Source: Bacteroidales bacterium
Lineage (GTDB): Bacteria; Bacteroidota; Bacteroidia; Bacteroidales; VadinHA17
Assembly (NCBI GenBank): GCA_022865305.1
Contig: JALHSP010000152.1
Span: 1-44,149, forward strand
Length of the DNA: 44,149 nt
Direction: 5' to 3'
This document shows positions 21,957-40,886 of this stretch, piece by piece. The position numbers and the translations under genes were made by a program. Position 1 is the first letter of the stretch. Each line of letters starts with the position of its first letter. The notes beneath the pieces were generated by a model. It had not been told where the DNA came from. It was given only the letters and a program-made list of their open reading frames with translations, and did no database searches.

Positions 21957-21970
21957 ATTTCAAACGTTTG
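21957..21970. promoter_or_regulatory. Putative LacI operator upstream of susC
   Basis: ATTTCAAACGTTTG contains the perfect palindrome CAAACGTTTG (21961-21970), typical of LacI-family sites centred on CG. It lies between the divergent regulator and susC genes, about 45 bases upstream of the susC -33 box. The 13 bases ATTTCAAACGTTT recur exactly at 39999-40011. The upstream position would suit activation or control of the regulator itself. Confidence 0.7.
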
Positions 21971-22014
21971 CGGAACTTTATGTTAATTTATTGAAAATTA
22001 ATGCTTTCAATTAA

Positions 22015-22043
22015 TTGCAGATGATATTTATTTTATATATTTG
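22015..22043 (+). promoter_or_regulatory. Putative susC promoter
   Basis: TATATTTG (22036-22043) matches TAnnTTTG exactly. TTG at 22015-22017 gives an 18-base spacing, close to the Bacteroidota -33 arrangement. The susC ATG follows 78 bases later, leaving a leader of roughly 65-70 bases. The identical -7 octamer serves the MFS operon. Confidence 0.6.
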
Positions 22044-22120
22044 TCATACCCAAAACCAAAAGGGATTTACCAAGAAATAGTAATTAAGTAATCTGTTATT
22101 ATCATTTAATCATTCATTCT

Positions 22121-25048
22121 ATGAAAAAACGAATTTTAACTATGCTGTATTTGCTACTTCTGGGAGTCTTTCTTCCCGGGGCAATTCTTGCCCAGGGGAT
22201 CAGGGTCTCAGGAAAAGTAACAGATGCAGCAGATGGTTCTGCTTTGGCCGGAGTAACAATCCGGGACAAGGGAACTGTTATTGGCACCTTAACTGATGTG
22301 AATGGCAATTTCAGTTTAGATATTGCCCCAACTGCCACACTTGTCTTTTCCTACATCGGTTATAAGACACAGGAGATACCCGTGAATAACCGGACTTCAA
22401 TCAATGTAGCACTGGAAGTTGAAAGTCAGGCGCTTCAGGAGGTGGTTGTAATCGGATATGGCACTGTCCGTAAAGGAGATGCCACCGGATCCGTAAAGGC
22501 TGTAAGCTCAGAATACTTTAATCCGGGTATTGTCAGTTCACCTCAGGAGATGGTAATTGGAAAGATGGCCGGTGTACAGATCACCACAGGCGGAGGTGCT
22601 CCCGGAGATGGTGCTACTATCCGTATCAGAGGTGGTTCATCACTGAGGGCGAGTAACGATCCACTTATAGTTATTGACGGAGTGGCTGTTGATATTGACG
22701 GCCCTACTGGGATGAGAAATCCACTGTCGACAATCAACCCGAATGACATTGAAACTTTCACAGTTCTCAAGGATGCCTCTGCAACAGCAATTTATGGCTC
22801 AAGAGCATCTAATGGTGTTATTCTTATTACTACCAAGAGAGGTACTTCCGGGCAACCCTTTACTGTAAATTATACAGGAAGCATTTCTGTCAGCAGCCCT
22901 ATCAAATTTGTGGAAGTCTTCTCAGCTGAAGAGTTCCGGGATCTTATCGCTTCAAAGTATTCATCAAATGCAGAAGCCCAGAAGCTTCTCGGTCATTACA
23001 ATACCAACTGGCAGAAAGAAATATTCAGAACATCTTTATCCCATGATCATAACCTGAACTTTTCGGGCGGGCTGGGCAAATTGCCGTACAGGGCAAGCAT
23101 CGGTTACACCTATCAGGATGGTATCCTTAAGACTGACAACCTGGAACGTATAACGGGTTCCGTTAACCTCAATCCATCGTTTTTTGATGATCATCTTAAG
23201 ATTGAACTGAACGCCAAGGGGATGATCAATAATAATGTGTTTGGAAATCAAGGTGCGATCGGTGGTTCTCTCTCAATGGATCCAACACAGGCACCCGATT
23301 TTCTATGGACTAATCCTGACGGATCCCCGCTTTTTGTAGCTCCTATGAATCCACTGACTCAACTTTATGATTATAATGATGAATCTGTTGTAAACAGGTT
23401 ACTGGGCAACCTGACACTGGAGTATAAGCTGCATTTCTTCCCTGCACTCAAGGCTAAATTGAACCTTGGCCTTGATAAATCATCCAGTAAGGGTACTGTC
23501 ATTATACCTGTAGGATCATTTTTATCTTATTCAACTTATGAAGGTTTGGGAAGGGATACTGAGTATAACCAGAATAAAACCAACTCACTCCTCGATTTCT
23601 ATTTTGATTATACCGGCGAATTTGGAGGTCACAGTCGTATTAATGCTGTTGCAGGTTATTCATGGCAGCACTTCTACAGGGATGGCAATACACTTACTAC
23701 ATACAATTTCGGGTCTGAGACATATGAAGACTCAGACTATAAATCAGAGAGTTTCCTTGTATCATTTTTCGGAAGAGTGAATTATGTGCTGTTTGACAAG
23801 TACCTGCTGACCTTCACTCTTCGTGATGACGGATCTTCTCGTTTCTCTCCCGCAACCAGGTGGGGCCTTTTCCCTTCAGCTGCATTTGCCTGGAACATTT
23901 CAAAAGAAAATTTCTTTAAAAACAATGTTCTTACAAATCTGAAGCTGAGACTTGGTTATGGTGTCACCGGCCAGCAGAACCTGAGCAATGATGACTATCC
24001 TTATCAGGCTGTTTATACATTTGCTGAACCAGGCGCTTACTACCAGTTTGGACCTCAATATATCCAGACATCCAGGCCAGGTGGTTATGACGCAAACCTG
24101 AAATGGGAAGAGACAACAACATATAATATTGGTCTTGATTATGGATTCCTGAAAGATCGTATCACCGGCGATATTGATTTGTACTACAGGCAGACTAAGG
24201 ACCTTATAAACCAGATACCTGTACCGGCCGGTACCAATCTTACAAACCAGATCGTAACTAACGTTGGAGATCTTGAAAACCGTGGTGTTGAGTTTTCAAT
24301 CAACGGCAAGGTAATTGCCACAACCAATACAGAGTGGGAATTAGGGTTTAATGCCAGCTATAATACCAACAAGATCACAAAGCTGACAGCAGTTGATGAT
24401 CCCAGCTATAAAGGTATTTACGTTGGAGGTTTTTCCGGAGGTGTCGGAAACACAATCCAGATACACAGCGTTGGATACCCGTCATATTCATTCTATGTTC
24501 AGGAACAGGTGTATGATGGTCTGGGAAACCCCATAGAGGGTCTTTATGTTGACCGTAATCGTGACGGAGCCATTACAGGTGATGACAGGTACAGGTATAA
24601 AAAACCTGCACCAACAGTTTTCATGGGCTTTTCCTCTCTACTCAGCTTGAAGGACTTCGATTTCTCATTTAATGGCCGCATTAACGTGGGCAACTACATT
24701 TATAATAATGTTTTCTCCAGCGCTGGTTCGTTTGCAAACATGGCAGCTTCAGGATATCTCTCCAACAGGGTAAAGAATGTTAAGGCTACCAATTTTGAAA
24801 ACTCACAGTATTACTCTGATTATTATATGGAGAACGGTTCATTTATGAAGCTTGATAACCTGTCAGTTGGTTATAATTTCAACAACCTCTTACAGAACAC
24901 TCTTAGATTAAGGGTTTACTGCACTGCACAAAACCTTTTTACGATCACAAAATATACTGGTCTTGATCCGGAAGTTTTCAGCGGTATTGATAATAATATA
25001 TATCCCCGTCCGAGGACTTTCCTGCTGGGCGTAAGCATTACCTTATAA
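22121..25048 (+). CDS. susC: SusC-like TonB-dependent receptor
   Basis: The 975-residue outer-membrane transporter has a signal peptide (ending ILAQG, about residue 26). A carboxypeptidase-regulatory-like domain (about 28-105: VSGKVTDAADGSALAGVTI) is followed by the TonB-box/plug region starting EVVVIGYGTVRKGDATGSV. The plug has GGAPGDGATIRIRGGSSLRA and DASATAIYGSRASNGVI, and a 22-strand-type barrel ends in FLLGVSITL. It imports oligosaccharides using TonB energy together with its SusD lid, encoded 12 bases downstream. The gene is the first of a likely operon with susD, the susE-like gene, GH53 and GH13. The substrate is inferred as maltodextrin from the neighbours; galactan oligosaccharide cannot be excluded because of the GH53 gene. 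Confidence 0.95.
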   Translation: MKKRILTMLYLLLLGVFLPGAILAQGIRVSGKVTDAADGSALAGVTIRDKGTVIGTLTDVNGNFSLDIAPTATLVFSYIGYKTQEIPVNNRTSINVALEVESQALQEVVVIGYGTVRKGDATGSVKAVSSEYFNPGIVSSPQEMVIGKMAGVQITTGGGAPGDGATIRIRGGSSLRASNDPLIVIDGVAVDIDGPTGMRNPLSTINPNDIETFTVLKDASATAIYGSRASNGVILITTKRGTSGQPFTVNYTGSISVSSPIKFVEVFSAEEFRDLIASKYSSNAEAQKLLGHYNTNWQKEIFRTSLSHDHNLNFSGGLGKLPYRASIGYTYQDGILKTDNLERITGSVNLNPSFFDDHLKIELNAKGMINNNVFGNQGAIGGSLSMDPTQAPDFLWTNPDGSPLFVAPMNPLTQLYDYNDESVVNRLLGNLTLEYKLHFFPALKAKLNLGLDKSSSKGTVIIPVGSFLSYSTYEGLGRDTEYNQNKTNSLLDFYFDYTGEFGGHSRINAVAGYSWQHFYRDGNTLTTYNFGSETYEDSDYKSESFLVSFFGRVNYVLFDKYLLTFTLRDDGSSRFSPATRWGLFPSAAFAWNISKENFFKNNVLTNLKLRLGYGVTGQQNLSNDDYPYQAVYTFAEPGAYYQFGPQYIQTSRPGGYDANLKWEETTTYNIGLDYGFLKDRITGDIDLYYRQTKDLINQIPVPAGTNLTNQIVTNVGDLENRGVEFSINGKVIATTNTEWELGFNASYNTNKITKLTAVDDPSYKGIYVGGFSGGVGNTIQIHSVGYPSYSFYVQEQVYDGLGNPIEGLYVDRNRDGAITGDDRYRYKKPAPTVFMGFSSLLSLKDFDFSFNGRINVGNYIYNNVFSSAGSFANMAASGYLSNRVKNVKATNFENSQYYSDYYMENGSFMKLDNLSVGYNFNNLLQNTLRLRVYCTAQNLFTITKYTGLDPEVFSGIDNNIYPRPRTFLLGVSITL

Positions 25049-25060
25049 CCTTAATATTAA

Positions 25061-26656
25061 ATGGCTATGAAAATAAGATTTTATAAAACAATATGTGCAG
25101 CAGTGATCCTCTTTTCAATGTTCATCGCTGGCTGTATAAAGGATCTGGATACTATTCCTCTTGATGAGGACATCCTCACGACGGAAAAAATATACAGTGA
25201 CTTTAATAATTATGAAAAGGTTCTTGCCAAAGTCTATGCAGGACTGGCAGTGTCAGGTCAGATGGGCCCTCATGGCAATAATGACCTAAGCGGTCTTGAT
25301 GAAGGATTCGGTCAATATACAAGAGCCTACTTCTATGCTCAGGAGCTGCCAACCGATGAAGCAATACTCGGATGGAATGACGGCAACCTGAGAGACTACC
25401 AGGAAATGGACTGGTCTGCATCCAACGAGTTCATATTTAATATGTACTCAAGGATCTTCTACCAGATTTCACTCTGTAATGAATTCATCCGTCAAACTAC
25501 TGAAGCTAAAGTTGCAGATTACGGTTTTACTGAAGCGCAGAAAACCACTATTACCCTTTACAGAACCGAAGCAAGACTTCTCAGGGCTCTCAGCTATTAC
25601 CATGCTCTTGATATGTTCGGAAGTGTTCCGTTCGTAACCGATGAAGATGCTGTCGGAGCATTCCTGCCTGAACAGATCTCACGAACTGATCTTTTTGACT
25701 ATGTTGAGAGTGAGCTTCTTGATATTGAGACTAAACTTATGGCGCCAAGGACTAATGTTTATGGACGTATGGACCAGGCATCAGCATGGATGCTGCTTGC
25801 ACGTCTCTATCTGAATGCCGAGGTTTATGGCAAGGGTGCAAAATATACCGAAGCAATAACCTACTCAAAAAAAGTGATAGATGCAGGTTACTATCTTGAA
25901 GATAACTACGCGAAGATGTTTATGGCTGACAATCATAATGCCAATGGTATCATATTTGCTATACCATATGACGGCGTTATGACTAAAACATGGGGTGGTA
26001 CATGTTTCATTATCCAAGCTGAAGTCGGAGGCTCGATGCTGCCGGCTAACTTCGGAATCAGCGGTGGCTGGTGGGGACTCAGGGCAAAACCTCAGTTTGT
26101 CGATAAATTTCCGGCAGACGATTCCGACAAGAGGAAAATGTTCTATACTGCAGGACAGACTAAAGACATTGCCGATATGTTCAATTTCAATCACGGTTAT
26201 GCCGTAACGAAATGGACTAATATCAAATCTACAGGTGGAGCCGGCTCGAATGGCACACACCCCGATACGGATCAACCGATCTTCAGGCTTGCTGATGCTT
26301 ATCTTATGTATGCCGAAGCTGTCCTTCGCGGCGGTACCGGCGGAAGTACTTCTGCCGCACTTGCATATGTGAATGAGATAAGACTCAAAGCTTATGGAAG
26401 TACAGCGGGACAAATAACCGAGGGAGAACTGACACTAAACTTTATTCTTGATGAAAGAGCAAGAGAACTTTACTGGGAGGGTTATCGTCGAACCGACCTG
26501 ATCAGATATGGTCTCTTTACCGGTGGTGGTTATATCTGGCAATGGAAAGGAGGAGTTCAGGCAGGTGTTGCAACAGATGCCAAGTATAAACTCTTCCCTA
26601 TTCCTGATGCCGATATGGGTGCAAATCCCAACCTGGTACAGAATGAAGGCTATTGA
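25061..26656 (+). CDS. susD: SusD/RagB-like glycan-binding lipoprotein
   Basis: The 531-residue protein has a lipoprotein signal with lipobox FIAGC (Cys25 from ATG 25061; a second in-frame ATG at 25067 is equally usable). The mature part shows the SusD fold: an N-terminal KDLDTIPLDEDILTTEKIY segment, TPR-like helices with LYRTEARLLRALSYYHALDMFGSVPFVT (cited here as TEARLLRALSYYHALDMFG), and the C-terminal RARELYWEGYRRTDLIRYG. It caps the SusC barrel at the cell surface and binds oligosaccharide. Aromatic-rich stretches such as SGGWWGLRAKPQF may form the binding platform. The gene is 12 bases after susC. Confidence 0.95.
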   Translation: MAMKIRFYKTICAAVILFSMFIAGCIKDLDTIPLDEDILTTEKIYSDFNNYEKVLAKVYAGLAVSGQMGPHGNNDLSGLDEGFGQYTRAYFYAQELPTDEAILGWNDGNLRDYQEMDWSASNEFIFNMYSRIFYQISLCNEFIRQTTEAKVADYGFTEAQKTTITLYRTEARLLRALSYYHALDMFGSVPFVTDEDAVGAFLPEQISRTDLFDYVESELLDIETKLMAPRTNVYGRMDQASAWMLLARLYLNAEVYGKGAKYTEAITYSKKVIDAGYYLEDNYAKMFMADNHNANGIIFAIPYDGVMTKTWGGTCFIIQAEVGGSMLPANFGISGGWWGLRAKPQFVDKFPADDSDKRKMFYTAGQTKDIADMFNFNHGYAVTKWTNIKSTGGAGSNGTHPDTDQPIFRLADAYLMYAEAVLRGGTGGSTSAALAYVNEIRLKAYGSTAGQITEGELTLNFILDERARELYWEGYRRTDLIRYGLFTGGGYIWQWKGGVQAGVATDAKYKLFPIPDADMGANPNLVQNEGY

Positions 26657-26678
26657 TTTATTCTTAAAACAAACAGAT

Positions 26679-27773
26679 ATGAAAAAAATAAGTCTGATAC
26701 TATTAATGTTAACAGTTTTCTTTACCGCTTGTGAAAAGGATAAGGAGAACGTAGTTATCAAATATTTGATACAATCAAATGACCTGAGTAATTTGTCTGC
26801 CACAACATTTGTTCTCGACAGGGAACAGGCTGCCAGTACTTTCCAGACATTCCAGTGGACTGATGTGGATTATGGATTTGACGCGGTGATTACTTATGTT
26901 GTTCAGTGTGATAAAAAAACTAATAATTTCAAATCTCCTATAGACATTGTTTCTGTAACACATGCTACTAGTGCCTCTATTTCAGTAGGAGATATGAATA
27001 AGCTAATGCTGGCTGCCAGTATGAATCCTGATGAAGCAACCGACCTGCAATTCAGAGTAAAATCCACTGTAAATGCCAAAGTCAATCCTATCTATTCAGA
27101 CATTGTTGAAGCTAAAGTCACTCCCTATGCAACAACATTCCCGCCGATATATATGTGCGGAGGAGCTGTGGGAGGATGGAACTGGGATCTGTACACTTAT
27201 AAGGAGTTGAGAAGCACGGCACCAAATGTTTATGAAACTATTGCCCGCTTCTTAAACAACGATATATTCAGGTTCTTCAAGCAAACAAACTGGAATCCAA
27301 CCTCATGGAACTACCTGTATTTCACAGGTACCATCAGCCCGCTGCTTGAACTAAATCCTAGTGATGGTGACAACAACTTCAAGTTTGTTGGAACGACGGG
27401 CTTTTACGAGATTACTGTCAATATGAAGACAAAGTCTGTTTCTATGGTTGCAGTTGCTGAGCCGGTACTCTTTGCAACAGGAGGCGCTCTCGGCGGTTGG
27501 GACTGGAGTACAAATTACATCCAGCTGACATGGAAAGCTAACGGAATATTTCAGGCAACTACCGACTTTTCAAATGACATCTTCCGTTTCTTCAAGCAGG
27601 CTGGCTGGGGTGATGGCTATAATTACCTCTGGTTTAACGGCGGATCTGTCAGCCCATTGCTGGAACTAAATCTCAATGACAGTGACAACAACTTCAGGTT
27701 TATCGGTACTCCCGGTAGTTATACAATTACAGTTAACCTGCTTGACAAAATTATTACAATGACTCAGCCCTAA
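26679..27773 (+). CDS. SusE/SusF-like surface starch-binding lipoprotein
   Basis: The start is placed at ATG 26679, which opens a clear lipoprotein signal (TVFFTACEKDKEN). The longer in-frame extension back to 26508 lies inside susD and has no signal peptide. The 364-residue product has an N-terminal Ig-like domain (about 25-150). Two tandem homologous carbohydrate-binding domains follow (about 154-258 and 261-364). Each begins with GGAVGGWNWD or GGALGGWDWS and contains DIFRFFKQ, SPLLELN and DNNFKF or DNNFRF. This matches the SusE/SusF design, in which such modules hold starch at the cell surface. Its gene follows susD by 22 bases, completing the SusCDE core. A hairpin follows it. Confidence 0.87.
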   Translation: MKKISLILLMLTVFFTACEKDKENVVIKYLIQSNDLSNLSATTFVLDREQAASTFQTFQWTDVDYGFDAVITYVVQCDKKTNNFKSPIDIVSVTHATSASISVGDMNKLMLAASMNPDEATDLQFRVKSTVNAKVNPIYSDIVEAKVTPYATTFPPIYMCGGAVGGWNWDLYTYKELRSTAPNVYETIARFLNNDIFRFFKQTNWNPTSWNYLYFTGTISPLLELNPSDGDNNFKFVGTTGFYEITVNMKTKSVSMVAVAEPVLFATGGALGGWDWSTNYIQLTWKANGIFQATTDFSNDIFRFFKQAGWGDGYNYLWFNGGSVSPLLELNLNDSDNNFRFIGTPGSYTITVNLLDKIITMTQP

Positions 27774-27811
27774 ACCAGCTGGTTAAAGTATTGATTCGCA
27801 TAAATTCTGAG

Positions 27812-27845
27812 AGAGGCTGTCATCATGATTGAAGGCAGCCTCTTT
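27812..27845 (+). terminator. Hairpin after the susE-like gene
   Basis: AGAGGCTG (27812-27819) pairs with CAGCCTCT (27836-27843) across a 16-base loop, and the stem is followed by TT and an A-rich stretch. The short T run suggests partial termination, which would lower expression of GH53 and GH13 relative to susCDE. Confidence 0.45.
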
Positions 27846-27858
27846 AAATAAAAATAAT

Positions 27859-29037
27859 ATGAGATCTTATAAATTATTTCTTATCCTGCTTGTCATAGCA
27901 GGCTGCAATGGTAAGGAAGACGCGAATAATAATCCTGCAGATAAAAGAATCTATTATTCGCATACTGAGTTTCCTATGGGAGCCGACCTCTCCTATGTAA
28001 ATCAGATCCTTGATAAAGGAGGTGTTTATAAAGACTCAGGAAAAATCACGAATCCTTATGTCATCTTTAAGAAGTACGGAGCAAACACTATCCGCTTCAG
28101 GCTCTGGCATAACCCTGAATGGACGAGAACAGTCTACGATCCCCCGATAACAAACATGTATAACGATTTTCCAGATGTCAAAAAAGGTATCCTTGCAGCA
28201 AAAGCACAAGGTATGGCAGTAAGTCTCGACTTTCACTACTCAGACAGCTGGGCAGATCCTTCAAAACAGGTGCCTCCTGCTGCATGGGAAGGAGTGTCAC
28301 TTTCTGATCTGCATGACAGCATTTACAACTATACCCTTAAGACACTTGACAAACTTGAAGCAGCAAACGCAATGCCTGAGTTTGTTCAGGTTGGTAATGA
28401 AATAAATCCCGGATTTGTCCTTCCCCAAGGTGACAGATGGAATAAAAAGGCAGATTTTATCTTTCTCCTTAACGGAGCAATAAATGCAGTAAGAGATGCA
28501 TCGGTTTCTTCAACTATAAAGCCAAAGATCATAGTCCATATCGCTCAGCCAGAAAATGTTGTTCCATGGTTTGAGAGCATGGCGTCAGCCGGATTGACTG
28601 ACTATGATATTGTCGGGGTCTCTTATTATTACCTGTGGTCTAAGGTAAGTATAAGCAATGTAAGTGATTATATTGCTGATATAAAGAGCCTGACCGGGAA
28701 GGATGTCATGGTGGTTGAAACAGCTTACCCCTGGACACTGAATATTGCAGACAGCTACAACAACATTATTGCAGCAGATAAACTTACTTCCACTTATCCA
28801 GCCAGCCAGACGGGCCAGTACGATTACCTGGTAAAGCTGACACAGGAAATAATTGACGGAGGGGGAAAAGGAATCCATTACTGGGAACCGGCATGGATAA
28901 CCTCAAACATGAAAGACAAGTGGGGTACAGGTTCTTCGTGGGACTGCAACACCCTCTTTGACTTTACCGGCAATGTTATCGAAGGAATGAATTACATGAC
29001 CTATCCCTATAAGTTTAAAAATAAACTCAGAGACTAA
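27859..29037 (+). CDS. GH53 endo-beta-1,4-galactanase lipoprotein
   Basis: From ATG 27859 the product has 392 residues; an in-frame TTG at 27829 lies within the hairpin before the gene and is rejected. It has the lipobox VIAGC and one GH53 TIM barrel. Hallmarks are GADLSYVNQILDKGG, NTIRFRLWHNPEW and LDFHYSDSWADP. The acid/base is Glu181 in VGNEIN and the nucleophile Glu287 in VVETAYPW, followed by GKGIHYWEPAW. GH53 enzymes cut beta-1,4-galactan side chains of pectin (type I arabinogalactan). The gene sits inside an otherwise alpha-glucan operon, between the susE-like gene and a GH13 amylase, which is unusual. The last three codons overlap an 8-bp tandem repeat. Confidence 0.93.
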   Translation: MRSYKLFLILLVIAGCNGKEDANNNPADKRIYYSHTEFPMGADLSYVNQILDKGGVYKDSGKITNPYVIFKKYGANTIRFRLWHNPEWTRTVYDPPITNMYNDFPDVKKGILAAKAQGMAVSLDFHYSDSWADPSKQVPPAAWEGVSLSDLHDSIYNYTLKTLDKLEAANAMPEFVQVGNEINPGFVLPQGDRWNKKADFIFLLNGAINAVRDASVSSTIKPKIIVHIAQPENVVPWFESMASAGLTDYDIVGVSYYYLWSKVSISNVSDYIADIKSLTGKDVMVVETAYPWTLNIADSYNNIIAADKLTSTYPASQTGQYDYLVKLTQEIIDGGGKGIHYWEPAWITSNMKDKWGTGSSWDCNTLFDFTGNVIEGMNYMTYPYKFKNKLRD

Positions 29038-29057
29038 GTGACTGAGAGACTTAGAGA
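29026..29057. repeat. Four degenerate 8-bp tandem repeats
   Basis: CTCAGAGA, CTAAGTGA, CTGAGAGA and CTTAGAGA follow head to tail. The first units encode the last codons and stop of the GH53 gene, so the repeat array has reached into coding sequence. Copy-number change would alter the C-terminus by only a few residues. Confidence 0.6.
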
Positions 29058-29063
29058 TAGTTA

Positions 29064-29094
29064 AACGCTGAACGCTATACGCTAAACCCTAAAC
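29064..29094. repeat. Heptamer tandem repeat before the GH13 start
   Basis: AACGCTG, AACGCTA, TACGCTA, AACCCTA and a partial AAC run up to the base before the ATG at 29096 (one base, T, between). The period is 7 with few mismatches. It occupies the ribosome-binding region of the amylase gene, so repeat number could influence translation. Confidence 0.65.
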
Positions 29095-29095
29095 T

Positions 29096-31906: not shown

Positions 31907-31923
31907 AAATTTTATAAACGGGA

Positions 31924-33816
31924 TTAGTTCTTCCTTAGAACGATGGCACTTATTGGTTCCAGATTTACATTGAGTTCTGAATCTACTGCTTTATATGATT
32001 TCCCTTCTTCAGATAATATGTCTGTAAAAATACCTCCATTATTTACCGGTACTACAACAGGTTGCACCTGATCGGACCGGTTGAAAACAATAATTATTTC
32101 ATTATCATCTGATGTTCTGGTGTAGCCAAGAACCATTTTCTGATCATCGGCTATTGTGAATTTGAGATCTCCGTAAATCAGCACAGGATTCTGTCTCCGC
32201 ACCAAAACAAGTTTTTTATAAAAAGACAACAAAGCCGTATCCGGTCTGACAATATCCACGGGGCGGATTTTTGAAGGATCCCAATTCGCTTTTTCATCCT
32301 CATAAACAATATCATTCCATACCACCGGTTTCCTGCAGTCAGGATCATCCGCTCCCCACATTCCCACTTCATCCCCATTCCATATTTGGGGTGCTCCTAT
32401 AAATGTAAACTGGTGTATCAGGAGCAGGATCTGTTCTTTTCTGGTAAGCTCATCCGGCTTGTTTATCTTATAGTCAGGATTTTCATATGGTTTGGCATTA
32501 TACTTATCCATTGTTTTGTTGAACAGGGAAGTAGAAAGCCTCGGAGAATCATGAGTGGCAGAGACATTCATCATAGCCTGCAGGTTATCAATGCTTATTC
32601 CCTTATCAATCCTTTCAATTTCACTGATAAATCCCGACGGGGTAAGCACTGGCTCGGCCTGGCCGAAGAATCCTCTTGCTACTCTGAACCACCTGTAATT
32701 CATAATGGCATCATATTGATCTCCTTCAAGAAAAACAGCAGGATCCAGAAGTTTATCCGGCCATTCAAGCCACCAGATCTCTCCAACAATGTAGGCTACG
32801 GGATTAACTGAACGTACCTCTTTTCGATAATCGCGCCAGAATCCCATTGGGACTTCACCGGCTACATCGAGCCTGAATCCATCCACTCCATCAACCGGAT
32901 CGCCGTTATTATCAGGATCAAGCCATCTTCTCGATACATTGAAAATATGCTGCCTTAATGATTCGGAGTGAAGATTTCCTTCAAACGGCATTATTTTATC
33001 ATCAGGTGGAATAATGTCTTTTCTGAAGACCGGCATATACGGATTATTCCCGCCCCAGCCTTCGTAGCTGAATTCATCAGCAGGAGTAGCCGGATCATCG
33101 AATTTAATTACATTGTACCAGTCCTTATATGCTGAATTACTTCCATTTTTTCTTATGTCATTCAGAGCCCAGAAATCACGGCCTGTATGATTCCATGAAT
33201 AATCCATAATTACCCTGATCCCTTTTTTATGACACTCATCAACTACTTTCAGAAACAGTTTATCAGCACCTGTCCATTGCCAGGTTGAAGGATCACCGGG
33301 AGATTCCGAATTCATTATTTCAACATCTCCTTCCGGATCGGGTCCGAAGTTACGGTCGATATGTGTGTAATTCCTAGCATCATATTTGTGAAGGGAAGGA
33401 GAATCATTAAGCGGATTAAAATAAATAGCTGTGATGCCAAGCTCCTGAATATAATCCAGTTTATCCAGAACTCCCTGGAGATCACCGCCATACCTGCGTG
33501 CCTGTATCTTTGAATTAAATCCGTCTGCTTTTACACTATCGAGCCATGGTTCATGAGCGTACCAATCGTGTCCCCAGGGTGTTATTTGCCAGTTATCTGG
33601 CAACTGATCAGGATAAGAACCTTTCATGTCAGCTGGCGTAGGATCATTTGAAGGATCGCCATTCCGGAAACGTTCAACAAAAATCTGGTACCATATTGCC
33701 TCTTTTGCCCATTCCGGAACAGAAGCAAGGTTTTTAATTTCAGACTTTTGCCGGCATGCATGAGTAATTATACATAATCCGATAGCCAGTAGTAAAATAA
33801 ACTTCTGTGATTTCAT
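31924..33816 (-). CDS. GH13 alpha-amylase/neopullulanase-like lipoprotein
   Basis: The 630-residue product has a signal peptide with a probable lipid-modified Cys21 (ITHAC). Its GH13 barrel carries IWYQIFVERFRNGDP, RRYGGDLQGVLDKLDYI, VIMDYSWNH, Asp317 in DGFRLDVAGE, Glu346 in VGEIWW and Asp423 in SATHDSPR. All three catalytic acids are present. The layout resembles SusG/SusA-type amylases and neopullulanases of Bacteroidota; the precise bond choice cannot be read from sequence. It is the last gene of the leftward operon and is separated from the preceding GH13 gene by 118 bases with a hairpin, so it may be expressed at a different level. It has no T9SS tail. Confidence 0.92.
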   Translation of the reverse strand: MKSQKFILLLAIGLCIITHACRQKSEIKNLASVPEWAKEAIWYQIFVERFRNGDPSNDPTPADMKGSYPDQLPDNWQITPWGHDWYAHEPWLDSVKADGFNSKIQARRYGGDLQGVLDKLDYIQELGITAIYFNPLNDSPSLHKYDARNYTHIDRNFGPDPEGDVEIMNSESPGDPSTWQWTGADKLFLKVVDECHKKGIRVIMDYSWNHTGRDFWALNDIRKNGSNSAYKDWYNVIKFDDPATPADEFSYEGWGGNNPYMPVFRKDIIPPDDKIMPFEGNLHSESLRQHIFNVSRRWLDPDNNGDPVDGVDGFRLDVAGEVPMGFWRDYRKEVRSVNPVAYIVGEIWWLEWPDKLLDPAVFLEGDQYDAIMNYRWFRVARGFFGQAEPVLTPSGFISEIERIDKGISIDNLQAMMNVSATHDSPRLSTSLFNKTMDKYNAKPYENPDYKINKPDELTRKEQILLLIHQFTFIGAPQIWNGDEVGMWGADDPDCRKPVVWNDIVYEDEKANWDPSKIRPVDIVRPDTALLSFYKKLVLVRRQNPVLIYGDLKFTIADDQKMVLGYTRTSDDNEIIIVFNRSDQVQPVVVPVNNGGIFTDILSEEGKSYKAVDSELNVNLEPISAIVLRKN

Positions 33817-33877
33817 ATTTTTCAGTTTTAACCACGGATTTATGACAGGTATAGCTAATAAAAAAACCCACCCCTTG

Positions 33878-33893
33878 CCCCTCCCAGGAGGGG
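33878..33893. repeat. 7-bp C/G hairpin between two GH13 genes
   Basis: CCCCTCC-CA-GGAGGGG is a perfect hairpin in the 118-base gap between the two leftward GH13 genes, preceded by CCACCCCTTG. It belongs to the same C-run/G-run family as the elements at 217, 11471 and 18907-18993. It might act as a weak terminator or as an mRNA-stability stem. Confidence 0.5.
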
Positions 33894-33934
33894 AACTCTT
33901 GTCTTAACACCTTTTGTCTTTTAAATTTTGTCTT

Positions 33935-35314
33935 TTATCTTATAAAAACCCTATACCCCCAGGGTTCAAGATTCATTTTCTCTTTCATCGGGAAATTAAC
34001 TTTGGCCCCTGTAAAATATTCAGTGTATTCACTTTCAAGATCTTTCTTTTTAAGTGTAAATTTTACACTTATTCTACTCAGGTTAAAGAAAACGACAACT
34101 CTGTTCCCATCTTTCTCCCTGTAAAAGGCAAATACCTTATTATCTTTATTTGTTTTGATCTTAACCATTTTACCGCCGAAATCGCCATTCCATAGCGCTT
34201 TATTTTCTGTTTTCAGCTTTATCAGGTTTGCATAAAATGCAGTAAGATCGCATGTGTCCCATTCAATAGTATCCCTTACAAAGAATTTTAATCTCTTATT
34301 GAGGCATACTTCCTGACCGCTGTAAATCAACGGCACTGACTGAGCTGTGAATATAAATGTAGCAAATGTCCGTTGTGCGCCGGCAAACAGGGAATCTGTT
34401 GTTCCTGTCCATGAGTTCTCATCATGATTCGTCAGGAACATAAGGCGATAGACGTTGTTCGGATAAACAGCCCACTCCCTGTTAAAGTACTTTGCAATCG
34501 ATCTTGCGCTGTCCTTACCCTGTGCAACATTTTTCATCATATGATGCAGCTCCCAGGCATAGTTCATATCAAATCCTTTTTCCATGAAACCTCCTGCTCC
34601 CTCGTGTTCTGCAAGCATCAGTACCGGTTTGATCTTATTCAGCTCTGTTCTGGCCCTTTCCCAAAACTCCTTTGGGGTGTTATGAGGATGGTCTACACGG
34701 AAACCGTCCACTCCAAGCTTTACCCAGAATGACATTGCATTTATCATGTAATCATGAAGTCCCTTCTGTGACCAGTCGAGCTGGATTACATCTGTCCAGT
34801 CTGTCCCGATAGGAGGAGTGAACTTCCCTGTGGAGTCTTTGGCATAGAATTCAGGATGATCAATTGTAAGCTGATTATCCCATGCAGTATGGTTTGGAAC
34901 CCAGTCGAGCATGACATACATTCCAAGCTCATGAGCCTTATTTATAACATTTTTAAAATCATCCAGCGTTCCAAATTCAGGATTAACATCCATAAAATCC
35001 TTTACTGAATAATAGCTTCCAAGTTCACCTTTTCTGTTTACAACGCCGATCGGGAAGGTTGGCATGAACCATAGCACATCTATGCCAAGAGCTTTTAACC
35101 TCGGAAGGTGTTCCGCAAACGCATTAAAGGTACCCTCATCAGTATACTGCCTTACGTTTACTTCGTACAGAACCATATTCTTTGTCCATTCAGGATGTAC
35201 AACCTCTGATGTGAAGGCTTTTAATTCTTTCTTCTTTCCGAACAGTGAACATCCGGCCAATATCATTATTGATGCAAGTAATATTGAGAGAATGCTTACG
35301 GGTAGTTTTTCCAT
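33935..35314 (-). CDS. GH13 alpha-amylase-like lipoprotein
   Basis: The 459-residue product has a strong lipobox (ILAGC, Cys22). Its compact GH13 barrel has MVLYEVNVRQYTDEGTF (about 48-64), MLDWVPNHTAWDN, Asp208 in DGFRVDHPHN, Glu236 in LAEHEGAGG and Asp298 in LTNHDENSW. All catalytic acids are kept. It belongs to a small-amylase branch common in Bacteroidota maltodextrin loci and is probably periplasm- or surface-anchored, acting on oligosaccharides after SusC import. It lies 23 bases downstream of the GH65 gene in the leftward operon. Size (459 against 630 and 936) and anchoring separate it from the other two GH13 enzymes in the window. Confidence 0.92.
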   Translation of the reverse strand: MEKLPVSILSILLASIMILAGCSLFGKKKELKAFTSEVVHPEWTKNMVLYEVNVRQYTDEGTFNAFAEHLPRLKALGIDVLWFMPTFPIGVVNRKGELGSYYSVKDFMDVNPEFGTLDDFKNVINKAHELGMYVMLDWVPNHTAWDNQLTIDHPEFYAKDSTGKFTPPIGTDWTDVIQLDWSQKGLHDYMINAMSFWVKLGVDGFRVDHPHNTPKEFWERARTELNKIKPVLMLAEHEGAGGFMEKGFDMNYAWELHHMMKNVAQGKDSARSIAKYFNREWAVYPNNVYRLMFLTNHDENSWTGTTDSLFAGAQRTFATFIFTAQSVPLIYSGQEVCLNKRLKFFVRDTIEWDTCDLTAFYANLIKLKTENKALWNGDFGGKMVKIKTNKDNKVFAFYREKDGNRVVVFFNLSRISVKFTLKKKDLESEYTEYFTGAKVNFPMKEKMNLEPWGYRVFIR

Positions 35315-35337
35315 TTTTTTATAATTGATTAAGTATT

Positions 35338-37647
35338 TTACAATTCTATTTGTTTTTCCTCCGACCCATGTATCTGATACTCTTTATCAAAAACAATCAT
35401 TTTTAATGTCCTGTCTGATTTGTTTTTAATAATTACGCCTGTATGAGTCACTTTAACTTCGAACCTGACACTACGGAATCTTGCCTGGAAAGAATATGAA
35501 GTCCATTTTTCAGGTATCAGGGGATTTACCCGGACTTTACTATCCAGGATCCTCATTCCGCCGAATCCTTCCACTATTGCCAACCATGTTCCTGCCATGC
35601 TTGTAATATGTAGACCATCACCGACCTCGTTGTTATAATCATCCAGATCGAGGCGTGCGGTACGCAGGTAGAGCTCATAGGCTTTTCTGATATTGCCTAT
35701 CCTGGATGCTACGATAGAATGGATACATGCAGATAATGATGATTCATGAACAGTCATTGGTTCATAAAAGTCAAAATTTCTCTTTACAGTTTTAATATCA
35801 TATTTATCTTCAAGAACATAAAGTCCATGGAGGACATCAGCCTGTTTTATGTAGCACGAGCGTAATATCCTGTCCCATGACCAGTGCTGGTTTATTGGTC
35901 TCTCTTCCGGAGGTATTTTTTCGGCAGGCAGTAATTCTTTATCAAGGAATCCATCCTGCTGAAGGAAGACTTTTCTTTTATCATCATATGGCATATGCAT
36001 TTTGTCAATCACTTTTTGCCAGTACCCTGTCTCTTCAGTAAAATCAAAATCAGTCTTCCTGATTATTTTTTCATATTTCCCGGGAGTTTCTTTACTGACC
36101 AGCAACAGGTTTGAAATAGTATATGACAATGTCCATACTGCCATTGTATTTGTATACCAGTTGTTATTGACATTATTCTCATACTCATTAGGACCGGTTA
36201 CACCCAGGATCATATATTTCTTTTTCTCTTCCGACCACGTAGCTCTCTGGCTCCAGAAACGGGAGATGCCAATCAATACTTCCAGTCCATAGTCGGCCAT
36301 ATATCCGTTGTCGCCTGTGTGCCTGTTATAATTATAAATGGCATAAGCAATTGCGCCATTTCTGTGAATCTCTTCAAATGTTATTTCCCATTCATTATGG
36401 CACTCTTCGCCATTCATTGTCACCATGGGGTATAAAGCTGCTCCATTTTTGAATCCCAGCTTTTCAGCGTTCTTTATGCTCTCCCCAAGGTGCTTATATC
36501 TGTATAACAGTAGATTTCTGGCAACTTTCTGATCGGCTGTTTTCAGGAAAAAAGGAAGGGCAAACGCTTCAGTATCCCAGTAGGTACTTCCTCCATATTT
36601 CTCACCTGTAAAACCTTTTGGTCCGATATTCAGTCTTTCATCTTTTCCTGTATAAGTCTGGTTAAGTTGAAAAATATTAAACCGTATTGCCTGCTGGGCT
36701 GCAATATCCCCCTCAATAACAACATCTGATGCATCCCATATTTCCCCCCATTCTGATTTGTGCTCCGAGAACAACTTCGCATAACCTTTCGATGATGCAT
36801 CTTTAAGTCTTTTCTTCACGTCTGTCATTAATACATCTTTAGGATTATTAAGCGATGATAACACAGAAACGTATTTGACAATAGTCAGTTCATCTCCCGG
36901 TTTTGTTTTGACTGAAAATGTGTTTGCTACAAATTTCTCACGGTCAGTGACAGAGGGTTTTACATGTAAAGGTTTTTTATTTCCGTGAAGCTCATAGCAC
37001 ATCCCTGTCGCAACATGGAAGTCGGTTTTCATTGTTCGTGTTATGATGATCCCCGTTCCGGTTGTGACTTCTCTCCTTACCTCTTTCCAGAATTTCTTGC
37101 CATAGTTGGCATCTTCATTTCTGACATCTGCATCAATATAAACAGTGAAGTCGATAGTCCCCGCAAAGTTTGCAGATTTTACTGAATATTTTATAATTCC
37201 AAGATCAGGTTCAGCCATGCTGAGGAATCTCCTGGAATTTATTTCAATAGTTTTATTTTCCGCTATAAGGATCCGGAAGGATCTTTCAAGATATCCTTCT
37301 CTCATATTAAGGATCCTCGAGAATGAAATAATCCTGGCTGTAGCAAGATCAACAGTTTTTCCATTCACTGAAACATCAATCCCTATCCAGTTTGGAGCAT
37401 TAAGGACTTTCGCAAAATATTCAGGATAACCATTTTTCCACCATCCGACTCGTGTTTTATCGGGATAGTAGACTCCTGCAATATAGCTGCCCTGAAGGCT
37501 GTCACCTGAATAATGCTCTTCAAAGTTGGCTCGTTGTCCCATATAACCGTTCCCTATCGAAAAGATGCTTTCCGACTCCCTGTTCAACTCAGGGTGAAAT
37601 CCCTCCTCGATTATGAGCCATTCATCTTTTTTATAACAGCTATTCAT
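35338..37647 (-). CDS. GH65 maltose phosphorylase
   Basis: The 769-residue cytoplasmic enzyme converts maltose and phosphate to glucose and beta-glucose-1-phosphate. GH65 marks include SIGNGYMGQRANFEEHY (about 30-46), GEKYGGSTYWDTEAFALPFF and the general-acid segment ECHNEWEITFEEIHRNG (about 415-431), which holds the catalytic Glu. A C-terminal beta-domain ends the chain. Related GH65 enzymes use kojibiose or trehalose, but the adjacent beta-phosphoglucomutase and maltose-type transporter favour maltose. The gene overlaps the pgmB gene by 8 bases, showing translational coupling. There is no signal peptide. Confidence 0.93.
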   Translation of the reverse strand: MNSCYKKDEWLIIEEGFHPELNRESESIFSIGNGYMGQRANFEEHYSGDSLQGSYIAGVYYPDKTRVGWWKNGYPEYFAKVLNAPNWIGIDVSVNGKTVDLATARIISFSRILNMREGYLERSFRILIAENKTIEINSRRFLSMAEPDLGIIKYSVKSANFAGTIDFTVYIDADVRNEDANYGKKFWKEVRREVTTGTGIIITRTMKTDFHVATGMCYELHGNKKPLHVKPSVTDREKFVANTFSVKTKPGDELTIVKYVSVLSSLNNPKDVLMTDVKKRLKDASSKGYAKLFSEHKSEWGEIWDASDVVIEGDIAAQQAIRFNIFQLNQTYTGKDERLNIGPKGFTGEKYGGSTYWDTEAFALPFFLKTADQKVARNLLLYRYKHLGESIKNAEKLGFKNGAALYPMVTMNGEECHNEWEITFEEIHRNGAIAYAIYNYNRHTGDNGYMADYGLEVLIGISRFWSQRATWSEEKKKYMILGVTGPNEYENNVNNNWYTNTMAVWTLSYTISNLLLVSKETPGKYEKIIRKTDFDFTEETGYWQKVIDKMHMPYDDKRKVFLQQDGFLDKELLPAEKIPPEERPINQHWSWDRILRSCYIKQADVLHGLYVLEDKYDIKTVKRNFDFYEPMTVHESSLSACIHSIVASRIGNIRKAYELYLRTARLDLDDYNNEVGDGLHITSMAGTWLAIVEGFGGMRILDSKVRVNPLIPEKWTSYSFQARFRSVRFEVKVTHTGVIIKNKSDRTLKMIVFDKEYQIHGSEEKQIEL

Positions 37648-38308
37648 AACCGGATAATTTTACAATTTTTTCCAATTTCTTCAAGTTTATCTTATTCAAA
37701 CCCGGGATGACAGAATGAGCTTCTGAAAGAATCCCGGAAGATCCTACCCCGATGCAAATCATTCCTGCATTAAGCGCTGCCCGGACACCGGCAACCGCAT
37801 CCTCAAATACGGCAATACGGACAGGTTCAATCCCAAGCATTTTTGCAGCTGTTAAAAAGACTTCTGGATCAGGTTTAGCCTTGCTGATTCTGTTGCCATC
37901 AGCAACTGCATCGAAAAGGTTTTCCATTCCTACACGTTCAAGAATTAAGGGAGTATTTTTGCTTGCAGATCCGATTGCCACCTTAATTCCTGCCTCCTTA
38001 AGTTCTTTAATAAACTCAAGGCTTCCCGGGAGTATTTCGTCCGGGGTCATCCGGCTAATATATTCAATATACCATCTGTTTTTAAGACTTGCGTACTCTT
38101 TCCTGAGCTCCTCATTCAGCCTCATATTACCTATTTCAAGAATAATATCAAGAGAATCCATCCTGCTTACGCCTTTGAGGCGCTCATTATCCTCTTCAGA
38201 AAAATGAATTTTTAACTGGTCGGCAAGCCTTTTCCATGCCAGGGAATGGTACCTGGCTGTATCCACAATTACACCATCAAGATCAAAAATACAACCCTTC
38301 AGCTTCAT
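37640..38308 (-). CDS. pgmB: Beta-phosphoglucomutase
   Basis: The 222-residue HAD-superfamily enzyme converts beta-glucose-1-phosphate from maltose phosphorylase into glucose-6-phosphate. It has FDLDGVIVDTARYH near the start (Asp9 nucleophile, Asp11 acid/base), the cap-domain block GVSRMDSLDIIL, GSASKNTPLILE (motif II Ser) and FEDAVAGVRAA (motif IV acids). The length and cap are standard for PgmB. It overlaps the MFS gene by 4 bases (ATGA) and GH65 by 8 bases, so the three are one tightly coupled unit. Confidence 0.95.
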   Translation of the reverse strand: MKLKGCIFDLDGVIVDTARYHSLAWKRLADQLKIHFSEEDNERLKGVSRMDSLDIILEIGNMRLNEELRKEYASLKNRWYIEYISRMTPDEILPGSLEFIKELKEAGIKVAIGSASKNTPLILERVGMENLFDAVADGNRISKAKPDPEVFLTAAKMLGIEPVRIAVFEDAVAGVRAALNAGMICIGVGSSGILSEAHSVIPGLNKINLKKLEKIVKLSGYE

Positions 38309-39849
38309 GAATATCTCCTGTCGTCAATGTCTTTGACAAACTTTACCATAATGGCAGCAATCATCATCGAAATACCGCCGGATATCAATGCATTCATTGT
38401 GTTGCCGGCAAAGAGGTGCTTCACCATGCTGCCGAGGATGCTTGCTGCAAGTATCTGGGGTATGACTATGAAGAAGTTGAAAATTCCCATATATATGCCC
38501 ATCTTATTCTGAGGAAGGGCTCCCGTCAGCATTGCATAAGGCATTGAAAGAATGCTGGCCCATGCAATACCTATCCCTATCATCGGAAAAATTAGCATCC
38601 ATGGTGTACTGATCAGGCTTATTGATATCAGGCTAACTCCGCCTGCCACCAGGCATATGGCATGAGTTAGCTTCCTTGAGGTTACTTTTGCTAAAACAGG
38701 AAGAAGAAATGCAACTGCTGCTGCAAATCCGTTATAAATACCAAAAAGGAAGCCGACCCAGTTAGCTCCTTCGTTATACTCGAGTGATTGGGTGTCACTG
38801 GTTCCGTAAATGTGTGACGTAACGGCTGAAGTGGTATAAATCCACATTGCAAAGAGTGCAAACCATGTAAAAAATTGTACAACTGCCAGCTGTCCCATTG
38901 TAGCCGGCATATTCCTGAGATCAGTAAGTATTGAGTTAAGTCCGTTTTCTCCTTTTCCTGATGATTGCAGCAAACCTGCAATTATCTGAAGCAGCCCGAA
39001 GACAGAGATGCCTCCGGAAATAATATAGAGCTCTTTCTCAAGGTTTACTCTTGAAAGAATTAAAGTCAGAATCAGGCCTGCAACGAGCCATATAAGCCCG
39101 GGTTTGTAGAAATTGACTTTTCTTTGAATTCCGGGCTCTTTGCCCTGTACCTTGTGCCCTGTATCCTGTACCTCTCCAATGGCAGCCTTTTCACTCTCTT
39201 CAAATTCCTTCAGTTCTTCTGGCGAATATTCTTTTGTGCGCAGTACAGTCCACAGCACTGCCAGAAAGAAGACACAAGAACCTATGTAAAAGGACAGTTT
39301 GACGTTTAACGGTATTAATTTACCTGGAGAAGGTTCTGTAGATACGTTAAACTTTTCTGTAAGAATGTATGGAAGGAAAGAAGCAACGACAGCTCCTGTA
39401 CCTATAAAGAAGCTTTGCATTGCGAAACCTTTTGTCCGTTGCTCCGAGGAGAGCATGTCACCAACGAATGCCCTGAAAGGTTCCATGGAGATATTTATTG
39501 ATGCATCCATTATCCAGAGCGTTCCTGCCGCAACCCACAATGCAGGTGAGTTAGGCATAAAGAACAATGCGAGCGAGGCCAGTATTGCACCGGTCAGAAA
39601 ATATGGATGGCGTCGTCCCAGCCTGTTCCATGTTTTATCACTCATATGGCCGATGATAGGCTGAATAATCAGGCCTGTCACCGGGGCAGCAACCCATAAA
39701 ATAGGGATATCATCAACTTTTGCTCCAAGTGTTTCGAAAATCCTGCTGACATTTGCATTCTGCAGAGCAAATCCAAACTGGATACCCAGGAATCCGAAGC
39801 TCATATTCCATATCTGCCAGAAAGAAAGTCTGGGTTTTGATTTTTTCAT
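38305..39849 (-). CDS. MFS maltose/sucrose-type transporter
   Basis: The 514-residue inner-membrane protein has about 12 transmembrane helices and the SLC45-like features [19 protein letters not shown] and [20 protein letters not shown], the family's loop 2-3 motif. Bacteroidota members placed with GH65 and pgmB carry maltose or maltodextrin across the inner membrane with protons. The central cytoplasmic loop between helices 6 and 7 holds the segment [14 protein letters not shown], encoded by a 7-bp tandem repeat, which looks like an inserted simple repeat. It is the first gene of the leftward operon; its promoter overlaps a putative LacI operator. Confidence 0.92.
39143..39170. repeat. Heptamer tandem repeat inside the MFS gene
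   Basis: On the plus strand CCCTGTA, CCTTGTG, CCCTGTA and TCCTGTA are head to tail, a period of 7. The repeat is read in frame on the minus strand as [10 protein letters not shown] in the cytoplasmic central loop. Three units (21 bases) equal seven codons, so only changes by multiples of three units keep the frame. Confidence 0.65.
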
Positions 39850-39974
39850 AAATGATTTGTTTATTCCTTAAAAAATAAAGAAAAAACCTATAAGGTTCCC
39901 ACTCAAAAATAGGAAAAATGGTTTGATAATTAACCTTTATATCTCATTTATTTTCATGCAGATTGGTGAAAAAA

Positions 39975-40006
39975 CAAATATAAAAGTGGCCTTCCTAAAT
40001 TTCAAA
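39975..40006 (-). promoter_or_regulatory. Putative promoter of the MFS-pgmB-GH65-GH13 operon
   Basis: Read on the minus strand, TTTG (40006-40003) and TATATTTG (39982-39975) are 20 bases apart, an excellent match to the Bacteroidota -33/-7 pattern. The -33 box lies inside the putative LacI operator. The start codon of the MFS gene is 126 bases from the -7 box, giving a leader of about 115-120 bases in which I see no riboswitch-like structure. Confidence 0.65.
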
Positions 40007-40012
40007 CGTTTT
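39999..40012. promoter_or_regulatory. Putative LacI operator of the MFS operon
   Basis: ATTTCAAACGTTTT repeats the first 13 bases of the susC-side site (21957-21969) exactly; only the outermost base of the palindrome differs. It covers the -33 box, so bound regulator would block the promoter. The rest of the 479-base gene-free stretch 39850-40328 shows only AT-rich DNA and no promoter box that I can name for the rightward DUF4402 genes. Confidence 0.7.
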
Positions 40013-40328
40013 CTGAAATCTGCCGGTTTACAGCTCAATATTCAATTTGCTGAAATGCTCCTTAACATTTGACTGATAATTATCAGTTACGCAGCTGGAT
40101 TCAATATTTATGATTATTTTACAGACCTGTTTTGTTAATAACTTCATAAAGTATGTTAAATACATCGAATTATATGAATCACTTAAAGTTATATTTTGTG
40201 GAAAAATTTAATTGAAACCAGTAAGAAATTAATCTGTTGTAACCCTTATAATGAGGAAATCAACCACATGAGCAAAATAAAACACAAAAAATTTAGTTAT
40301 TATATTCAAATTTAATTTTAAACCAAAA

Positions 40329-40850
40329 ATGAAACGTATGAAAAAGTTTTTCGCCCTCACAGTTGTAATGCTTGCTTTCGCGGCATCATCATTCGCTCAG
40401 TCATCAGCTACAGCTTCAGCGACTGCAACCATTCTTACTCCGATTGCAATATCAAATACTGTTGATATGGATTTCGGGAACCTTGCAGGAAGCGTAACAC
40501 CCGGGACCTGTGTTCTTGCTACGGATAATTCACGCACTCCCGCGGGTGGTGTCACAATAATGGCTGGAGGTACTCCAACTGCTGCCAGCTTTACCGTTAC
40601 AGGTGCTGCCGATGCTGTATATACTATTACTCTTCCGGGTGGAGCAACAACAGTCTCTAATGGAACGAATACCATGACAATTGACACCTGGGTCAGTAGT
40701 CCTACCCCAACAGGAACCCTCACTCTGGGTACTTCAACCCTGCTGGTTGGTGCCACATTGAACGTGGGTATCAGTCAGGCAGGCGGAGTATACAACACTT
40801 CCAATGCAGGTGGTAGCGGTGAATTTACTGTTACAGTAAATTATCAATAG
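40329..40850 (+). CDS. DUF4402 secreted pilin-like protein 1
   Basis: The 173-residue protein has a signal peptide (ending SSFAQ, about residue 24); ATG 40338 is an alternative start three codons in. The mature part is Thr/Gly/Ala/Ser-rich and all beta, with TATILTPIAISNTVDMDFGN at the start, FTVTGAADAVYTITLP in the middle, and LLVGATLNV then GEFTVTVNYQ at the end. These are DUF4402 family features. The fold resembles spore coat protein U and fimbrial subunits, whose last strand ends with aromatic-containing alternation. It is the first of three genes with a paralogue and a PapD-like chaperone. A surface-fibre or coat subunit is inferred. Confidence 0.85.
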   Translation: MKRMKKFFALTVVMLAFAASSFAQSSATASATATILTPIAISNTVDMDFGNLAGSVTPGTCVLATDNSRTPAGGVTIMAGGTPTAASFTVTGAADAVYTITLPGGATTVSNGTNTMTIDTWVSSPTPTGTLTLGTSTLLVGATLNVGISQAGGVYNTSNAGGSGEFTVTVNYQ

Positions 40851-40886
40851 TAAGGTTTTAAGTAAATCTACACCTCCCTCAGAATA

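Follow-up and report, generated by a model that had tools for sequence, protein, structure and literature searches.

Bacteroidota are major degraders of starch and glycans, and their sus-like loci are usually discussed in terms of SusR, hybrid two-component and extracytoplasmic function (ECF) sigma regulators. Most described LacI-family proteins repress; CcpA, a global regulator that uses a phosphoprotein partner, is an activator of this family. LacI-family activators are known; Cra is named both repressor and activator in PMC4052901, and the passages of that source on Bacteroides name the LacI-family regulators KdgR, UxaR, UxuR and UxmR, with no maltose regulon among them. For Shewanella MalR, a LacI-family protein annotated as a repressor, the relevant part of PMC5443562 presents fitness data that suggest an activator binding more than 300 bp upstream, while GalR at gal is treated as contact-type repression in the corresponding section of PMC4693257. 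Our full-text literature search, with subscription journals and RegPrecise outside its scope, brought up no paper recognisable as describing a maltose regulon of a LacI-family protein in Bacteroidota. Here we analyse a candidate for such a regulon on contig JALHSP010000152.1 of assembly GCA_022865305.1 (a Bacteroidales bacterium of the VadinHA17 lineage), one complete contig of 44,149 bases, the window, in a genome of 4,980,707 bases and 176 contigs. A starch/maltose locus spans 20.8 to 39.9 kb of the window and consists of a LacI-family regulator gene (-), a divergent susC-susD-susE-GH53-GH13 operon (+) and an MFS-pgmB-GH65-GH13-GH13 operon (-). The two operons appear to belong to one LacI-type regulon, probably activated from upstream on both arms.

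Both operons are preceded by the same 13 bases, ATTTCAAACGTTT, at 21957-21969 before susC and at 39999-40011 before the MFS operon, on the + strand in each case. As the original prediction had it, the exact core CAAACGTTT is found nowhere else in the window, and the first copy lies 45 bases from the TTG before susC. The genome search that it proposed returned these two matches of ATTTCAAACGTTT and no others among the 4,980,707 bases, with no match of the reversed pattern, and two matches arose in 0 of 100 shuffles. Site 1 is symmetric as CAAACGTTTG (21961-21970), a palindrome with a central CG that lies beside the LacI gene and is conserved there; site 2 is CAAACGTTTT, which towards MFS reads CAGAAAACGTTTGAAA. 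Looser matching is uninformative, because a 14-base operator pattern with one mismatch allowed gives 65 genome matches against 38 for its reversed control; ten of the 65 were placed, the two window sites being intergenic and the other eight lying in open reading frames (ORFs). The CAAACGTTT core has 19 strand matches in the genome, three of them from the two operator sites, and the remaining 16 comprise 15 inside ORFs of at least 100 residues and one between ORFs. The 12-mer AAACGTTTGAAA alone is not rare, since 59 genomes of the genus contain 93 matches, a figure that takes in the locus sites, and the reversed control has 104; these matches were placed only where they fall in the locus of a few genomes.

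Within the family, regulator orthologues (at least 55% identity) are present in 63 of 117 genomes and the transporter was found in 71. The two occur together in 59 genomes, the transporter only in 12, the regulator only in 4 and neither in 42 (Fisher p 4e-16, taken without correction for relatedness). The site accompanies 54 of 68 LacI rows of the family, one of them a 41% relative (L122), and 62 of 70 MFS rows; its usual form is TTTCAAACGTTTGCGG, ATTCAAACGTTTGCGG or TTGCAAACGTTTGCGG on the susC side, and CCG, CAG or TCG followed by AAAACGTTTGAAA on the MFS side. Beyond the family we took the best 80 of 566 relatives as named loci, a larger set that includes Marinifilum, Labilibaculum, Carboxylicivirga, Alkalitalea, Bacteroides neonati, Fulvivirga, Roseivirga, Indibacter and many metagenome-assembled genomes. 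In many of these best 80 of 566 loci a leftward GH13-susD-susC operon is followed by a rightward LacI gene and MFS-pgmB-GH65. The operator stands before susC in nearly all susC-bearing loci of this set and before MFS in many of its Bacteroidales-type loci, and a convincing MFS operator was not seen in the set where MFS follows LacI within about 160 bp. Both genes have an operator in Marinifilum, Labilibaculum, Alkalitalea and Mangrovibacterium, which are culturable relatives from the environment.

An operator-type match precedes susC in 103 of 107 LacI-susC regions (shuffle mean 2.7, maximum 7) and MFS in 87 of 103 MFS regions (shuffle mean 2.1, maximum 5), counts that include some assemblies twice (e.g. 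L029/L179), most of which clustering removes. Left out of the region counts were named loci with gaps outside 40-1200 (susC) or 60-2000 (MFS) bases, together with the 20 of 68 LacI loci that have no callable divergent susC. Eight of these 20 have an operator downstream of LacI, five have the usual site and no callable susC (L090, L099, L101, L111, L118), four show neither site nor susC (L036, L042, L046, L053), and three are paralogues or the 41% relative (L163, L164, L122). Because relatives carry an operator-type match both before susC and before the transporter, a single LacI-type regulon joining the two operons is well supported. This much of the original prediction stands, with operators before both operons in relatives and co-occurring genes, but repression through the -33 box and a different action on each arm are not supported. 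What speaks most strongly for direct control of both arms is that the MFS operon retains its own operator in either gene arrangement, both after LacI across a longer gap and, as in the window, at the far end of the locus. The operons are convergent halves of one locus beside the LacI gene, meeting tail to tail at 31906/31924 with 17 bases between ORFs; the '18 kb apart' of the original prediction is therefore the distance between two ends of one locus and no long-range link.

Operators and promoters stand at discrete spacings. A flavobacterial start-site map, as given in the pertinent part of PMC9723704, places TAnnTTTG at -12 to -5. We took the distance between the centre of the operator and the box's first T in 77 susC and 61 MFS promoter clusters, counting a distance once per cluster (a cluster may give several) and leaving out distances below 15 or above 140 bp. 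At susC the distances were 60-64 bp (14), 69-74 bp (19) and 83-85 bp (4), with nothing at 65-68 or 75-82 bp and seven scattered values (19, 23, 31, 42, 49, 50 and 117 bp). At MFS they were 83-88 bp (27) and 94-98 bp (31), with nothing at 89-93 bp and single cases at 25, 65 (L061), 70 and 102 bp. Boxes on the opposite strand, used as a control, gave seven distances at susC (29, 96 twice, 113, 115, 126 and 128 bp) and four at MFS (116, 127 and 128 twice). The two MFS classes have means of 85.5 and 96.0 bp, about one helical turn apart, and the window falls in class 70 at susC and class 96 at MFS. In the same loci, box-to-ATG and LacI-to-operator distances spread broadly. By parsimony on protein trees the class changed at least six times for MFS (77 rows) and at least five times for susC (44 rows).

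These distances also bear on which promoter serves the MFS operon. The original prediction had given both operons the same -7 octamer, and TATATTTG does occur at 22036-22043 (+) and 39975-39982 (-), but the latter is not conserved in the relatives examined. Instead, most relatives have a common TAnnTTTG where the window has TATTTTTG (39904-39911), or one turn closer, and the two arms therefore look alike in operator, spacer and promoter. In relatives with a callable -7 box, the expected start follows the operator by about 70 to 110 bases on either arm, and there is no sign of opposite action on the two arms.

A second element, TGAAAATWAAT, is shared by the two promoters and is not overlapped by the operator. 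The pattern TGAAAATWAAT-N31-35-TAnnTTTG has two matches in the genome, exactly these two promoters, and its reverse has none. Recounted across the family in the relaxed form TGAnnnTWA, the element is found in 14 of 18 loci of class susC-70 (mostly 26 bp from the operator and 43-45 bp from the box), in all 9 of class susC-61 (28 and 33-34 bp), in 19 of 32 of class MFS-95 (49-52 and 43-45 bp) and in 3 of 23 of class MFS-85 (51 and 34 bp). Where present, it holds two box distances about one turn apart, and the arms do not differ in these. TGAAAATWAAT is not general, being absent from its usual place in part of the family and replaced there by other sequences in distant loci. Its binder may be another activator, or the alpha domain of the polymerase on an AT-rich stretch.

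We consider it rather probable that the LacI-family protein activates both arms from upstream. The 338-residue protein would be the local regulator of this single starch/maltose locus, with one binding site ahead of susC and another ahead of the MFS-pgmB-GH65-GH13 operon. It would act from well upstream of RNA polymerase, its operators centred near -82 and -108 when the box is taken as -12 to -5, through a contact that would work only from one DNA face and in the same mode on both arms. Both operons would be activated together, helped by a TGAAAATWAAT-binding factor between operator and promoter, and the signal would be a maltose-pathway sugar. The computations establish shared, conserved and genome-unique sites at discrete spacings; from these we infer that the 338-residue protein binds the sites and touches polymerase or a partner with positive sign, in response to such a sugar. 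Contact with the transcription machinery from one DNA face is suggested because the operator spacings fall in discrete classes. These classes, with at least 11 changes on the two trees, are what would be expected of a Class I-type activator whose site shifts by full turns and so keeps to one face of the helix. A classical LacI repressor would place its operator over -33, -7 or the start, whereas here the operator lies 60-98 bp from the callable conserved box, and upstream contact from one face is favoured because a repressor that blocks polymerase needs no fixed positions at such distances.

It is conceivable, though we regard it as rather unlikely, that the protein, bound to these phased sites, represses or anti-activates from upstream in the manner of GalR or CytR, contacting polymerase or the TGAAAATWAAT factor and keeping both operons off until sugar releases it. 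In the account that PMC4693257 gives of the mechanism, GalR at an upstream operator acts via the C-terminal domain of polymerase alpha with an effect that follows the DNA face, and in most susC loci with a called box the second element stands between operator and promoter at near-fixed spacing. Against this, tandem LacI-susC loci have operators 132-144 bp from the box, which is far for a repressor, and the operator and second element do not overlap. Because contact-type repression of the GalR kind is known too, we call a positive sign of regulation no more than probable.

Several observations weigh against activation from phased sites, or temper it. Phased spacing also fits a repressor contacting polymerase, as GalR does at gal. 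The best period pooled over both promoters is about 12 bp and not 10.5 bp, so that the spacing is not the plain B-DNA repeat; supercoiled DNA or promoter differences may account for this, and we claim no exact helical repeat. The loci are kin by descent, and spacing probabilities under a uniform null consequently overstate significance. The trees were quick ones with long-branch warnings, susC class labels vary with the operator copy taken (72 or 60 in L093/L094), and the 12-bp half-site repeats described below could themselves create the susC spacing steps. When distances are taken from the last operator copy, 58 of the 103 operator-bearing susC regions lack a strict TAnnTTTG at a class position, although two of these (L054 and L119) have a box at a class position from the preceding copy. 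The TGAAAATWAAT pattern was written after both promoters had been seen, and the element is absent from its usual place in 20 of 23 MFS-85 and 13 of 32 MFS-95 loci. As to the regulon itself, a LacI orthologue is missing from 12 of the 71 MFS-bearing family genomes, all of them, however, fragmented into 130 to 610 contigs; 16 of the 103 MFS regions have no operator; and the Cytophagales-type loci within the best 80 of 566 showed no convincing MFS operator.

The remaining alternatives fare less well. It is improbable that, as originally proposed, the regulator represses the MFS operon by covering a -33 box and acts differently at susC. The TTTG of operator 2 is indeed 20 bp before the TATATTTG at 39975-39982, but a box at that distance occurs in one of 61 MFS promoter clusters, the window's own, and is thus peculiar to this genome; the conserved box lies 94-98 or 83-88 bp away, with a distance of 94 bp in G074, which has an MFS protein of 85% identity. 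It is more improbable still that the sites belong to another LacI paralogue. The genome has five LacI helix-turn-helix (HTH) genes, this regulator being one, and CAAACG-type cores are usual for the LacI family, but the site adjoins this orthologue in most LacI-susC regions examined, and no such site was found upstream of two of the four paralogues (L163, L164). A chance or non-functional identity of the two sites, to which the 19 strand matches of CAAACGTTT and the abundance of the 12-mer in the genus might point, is for practical purposes refuted by deep conservation at both promoters, with the core lying near-exclusively at promoters in this genome.

The two arms differ in their half-sites. 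Half-sites CG[AT]TTGC exactly 12 bp apart form 53 pairs in the 103 operator-bearing susC regions, some assemblies being counted twice, and none in the 87 MFS regions. Because such arrays occur at susC and not at MFS, any difference between the arms may lie in operator strength or cooperativity more than in sign. In the alignment the window's second susC half-site looks decayed. Distant susC promoters (e.g. L199, L255, L231) have LacI half-sites every 12 bp, up to three in a row.

The secreted GH13 gene has a promoter of its own, the third to bear the operator, which it does in 4 of the 48 regions examined (from 53 matches, with this genome among the 48). All four have a -7-type box at 58-60 bp, one of them TAACTTTA; the stretch from operator to box contains TGAAAATTAG in L296 and looser matches in the remaining three. 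The window has no such third operator. Relatives with it include L259-L262 and L264, L261 being a further case. Separately, an operator lies downstream of LacI in L032, L033, L034, L037, L039, L041, L043 and L121. In seven of the eight these operators precede a different, tandem susC, L039 showing none; they stand 119-144 bp from the box, and most of these loci have a TTCACTATCACNATGTTATGTTAATA-like stretch between operator and box. Before such other susC genes the boxes lie at 108, 132 and 141-144 bp, and in L039, where the next gene was not seen, at 119 bp.

Some susC loci have another candidate box. In 21 of them, some assemblies being counted twice, the operator is separated from [AT]TTTA[TC] by a constant 64 bp; this subgroup (L055 and many of L092-L117) has no TAnnTTTG at a class position, and in L056 and L091 the motif lies 52 bp from the last operator copy. 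It is possibly the box of another sigma factor. We rejected autoregulation of LacI as the main role of operator 1: its distance to the LacI ATG ranges from 52 to 542 bp over 38 susC clusters, and of the 53 orthologue loci with the site only 2 have a TAnnTTTG in the direction of LacI at no more than 120 bp.

Across much of Bacteroidota, it is tentatively suggested that a LacI-family activator switches starch/maltose loci on from phased positions at about 61, 71, 85 and 96 bp, rarely 108-144 bp, upstream of the -7 box, with the TGAAAATWAAT factor in this family, a 12-bp half-site array at susC in many relatives and a single site at the transporter. We would give this wider proposal somewhat less than an even chance.

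Coordinates of the promoter elements and genes of the starch/maltose locus in the window
Feature	Position	Strand	Remarks
LacI-family regulator, 338 residues	20778..21794	-	Pfam LacI HTH and periplasmic-binding-like sensor
Predicted operator 1, TTTCAAACGTTTGCGG, 70 bp from susC -7 box	21958..21973	+	Conserved in relatives
Second shared element TGAAAATTAATG, 44 bp upstream of susC -7 box	21992..22003	+	
susC promoter -7 box, TATATTTG	22036..22043	+	
susC	22121..25048	+	TIGR04056 above cut-off
susD-like	25061..26656	+	NF033071 SusD, 426 bits, below 725-bit cut-off
SusE-like outer membrane protein	26508..27773	+	PF14292; true start probably downstream of ORF start
GH53-family hydrolase	27829..29037	+	PF07745, E 2.3e-96
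GH13 alpha-amylase-family protein, T9SS sorting tail (secreted)	29096..31906	+	PF00128, PF18962
GH13 (maltogenic amylase type), last gene of transporter operon	31924..33816	-	PF00128, PF16657
GH13 amylase	33935..35314	-	PF00128
GH65 hydrolase/phosphorylase	35338..37647	-	NF010380 above cut-off; PF03632
Beta-phosphoglucomutase	37640..38308	-	TIGR01990 above cut-off
MFS sugar transporter, first gene of second operon	38305..39849	-	PF07690, PF13347
Conserved MFS operon -7 box, TATTTTTG, 96 bp from operator 2	39904..39911	-	
Second shared element TGAAAATAAATG, 45 bp upstream of conserved MFS -7 box	39945..39956	-	
Extra TATATTTG near operator 2	39975..39982	-	Taken as -7 box in the original prediction; not conserved
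Predicted operator 2, CAGAAAACGTTTGAAA read towards MFS	40000..40015	-	Conserved in relatives

Membership of the regulator in the LacI family follows from PF00356 and PF13377/PF00532, both above cut-off. The GH65 protein is by its context a putative maltose phosphorylase, and its family and setting, next to beta-phosphoglucomutase, suggest that maltose is broken down inside the cell by a maltose-phosphorylase pathway. Pfam and NCBIfam (one or both libraries for each protein) named no SusR among 19 window proteins, a search in which SusR sequence was not used as a query and the presence of a SusR model in the libraries was not verified. The starch operon includes a GH53-family gene, flanked by susE and the gene for the secreted GH13 protein, and homologues occupy the same operon in several relatives (L185, L259-L262, L265). 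Two DUF4402 genes adjoin the locus at 40329-41420 (+), followed by a weak PapD-type chaperone match, below cut-off, at 41445-42329.

A widely conserved LacI regulon with fixed promoter geometry would give a testable rule for upstream regulators at unusual -7/-33 promoters, and 'LacI' in a locus is not to be equated with 'repressor'. By sequence, the best solved relatives of the 338-residue protein are CcpA chains, e.g. 1rzr; CcpA is global, whereas the present genome has two exact sites. The locus resembles the LacI-family local sugar regulons in the pertinent part of PMC4052901 in its LacI HTH with sugar sensor, CG-centred operator, regulator gene beside its targets and carbohydrate pathway, and differs from those described there in that its operators stand at phased upstream positions instead of covering the promoter. 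With GalR, as far as PMC4693257 details it, the predicted mechanism would share a contact-type action following the DNA face. Shewanella MalR, as the passages of PMC5443562 on that protein present it, is likewise a LacI-family maltose regulator and inferred activator with far-upstream binding, but in another phylum and with other targets, and the likeness drawn here is one of description. SusR of Bacteroides thetaiotaomicron, in the account of the sus locus in PMC3878776, similarly controls a starch locus with two target operons, and its predicted sites there are spaced widely, at either 67 or 77 bp, values that differ by one turn; the present locus differs in having a LacI-family protein and a palindromic site.
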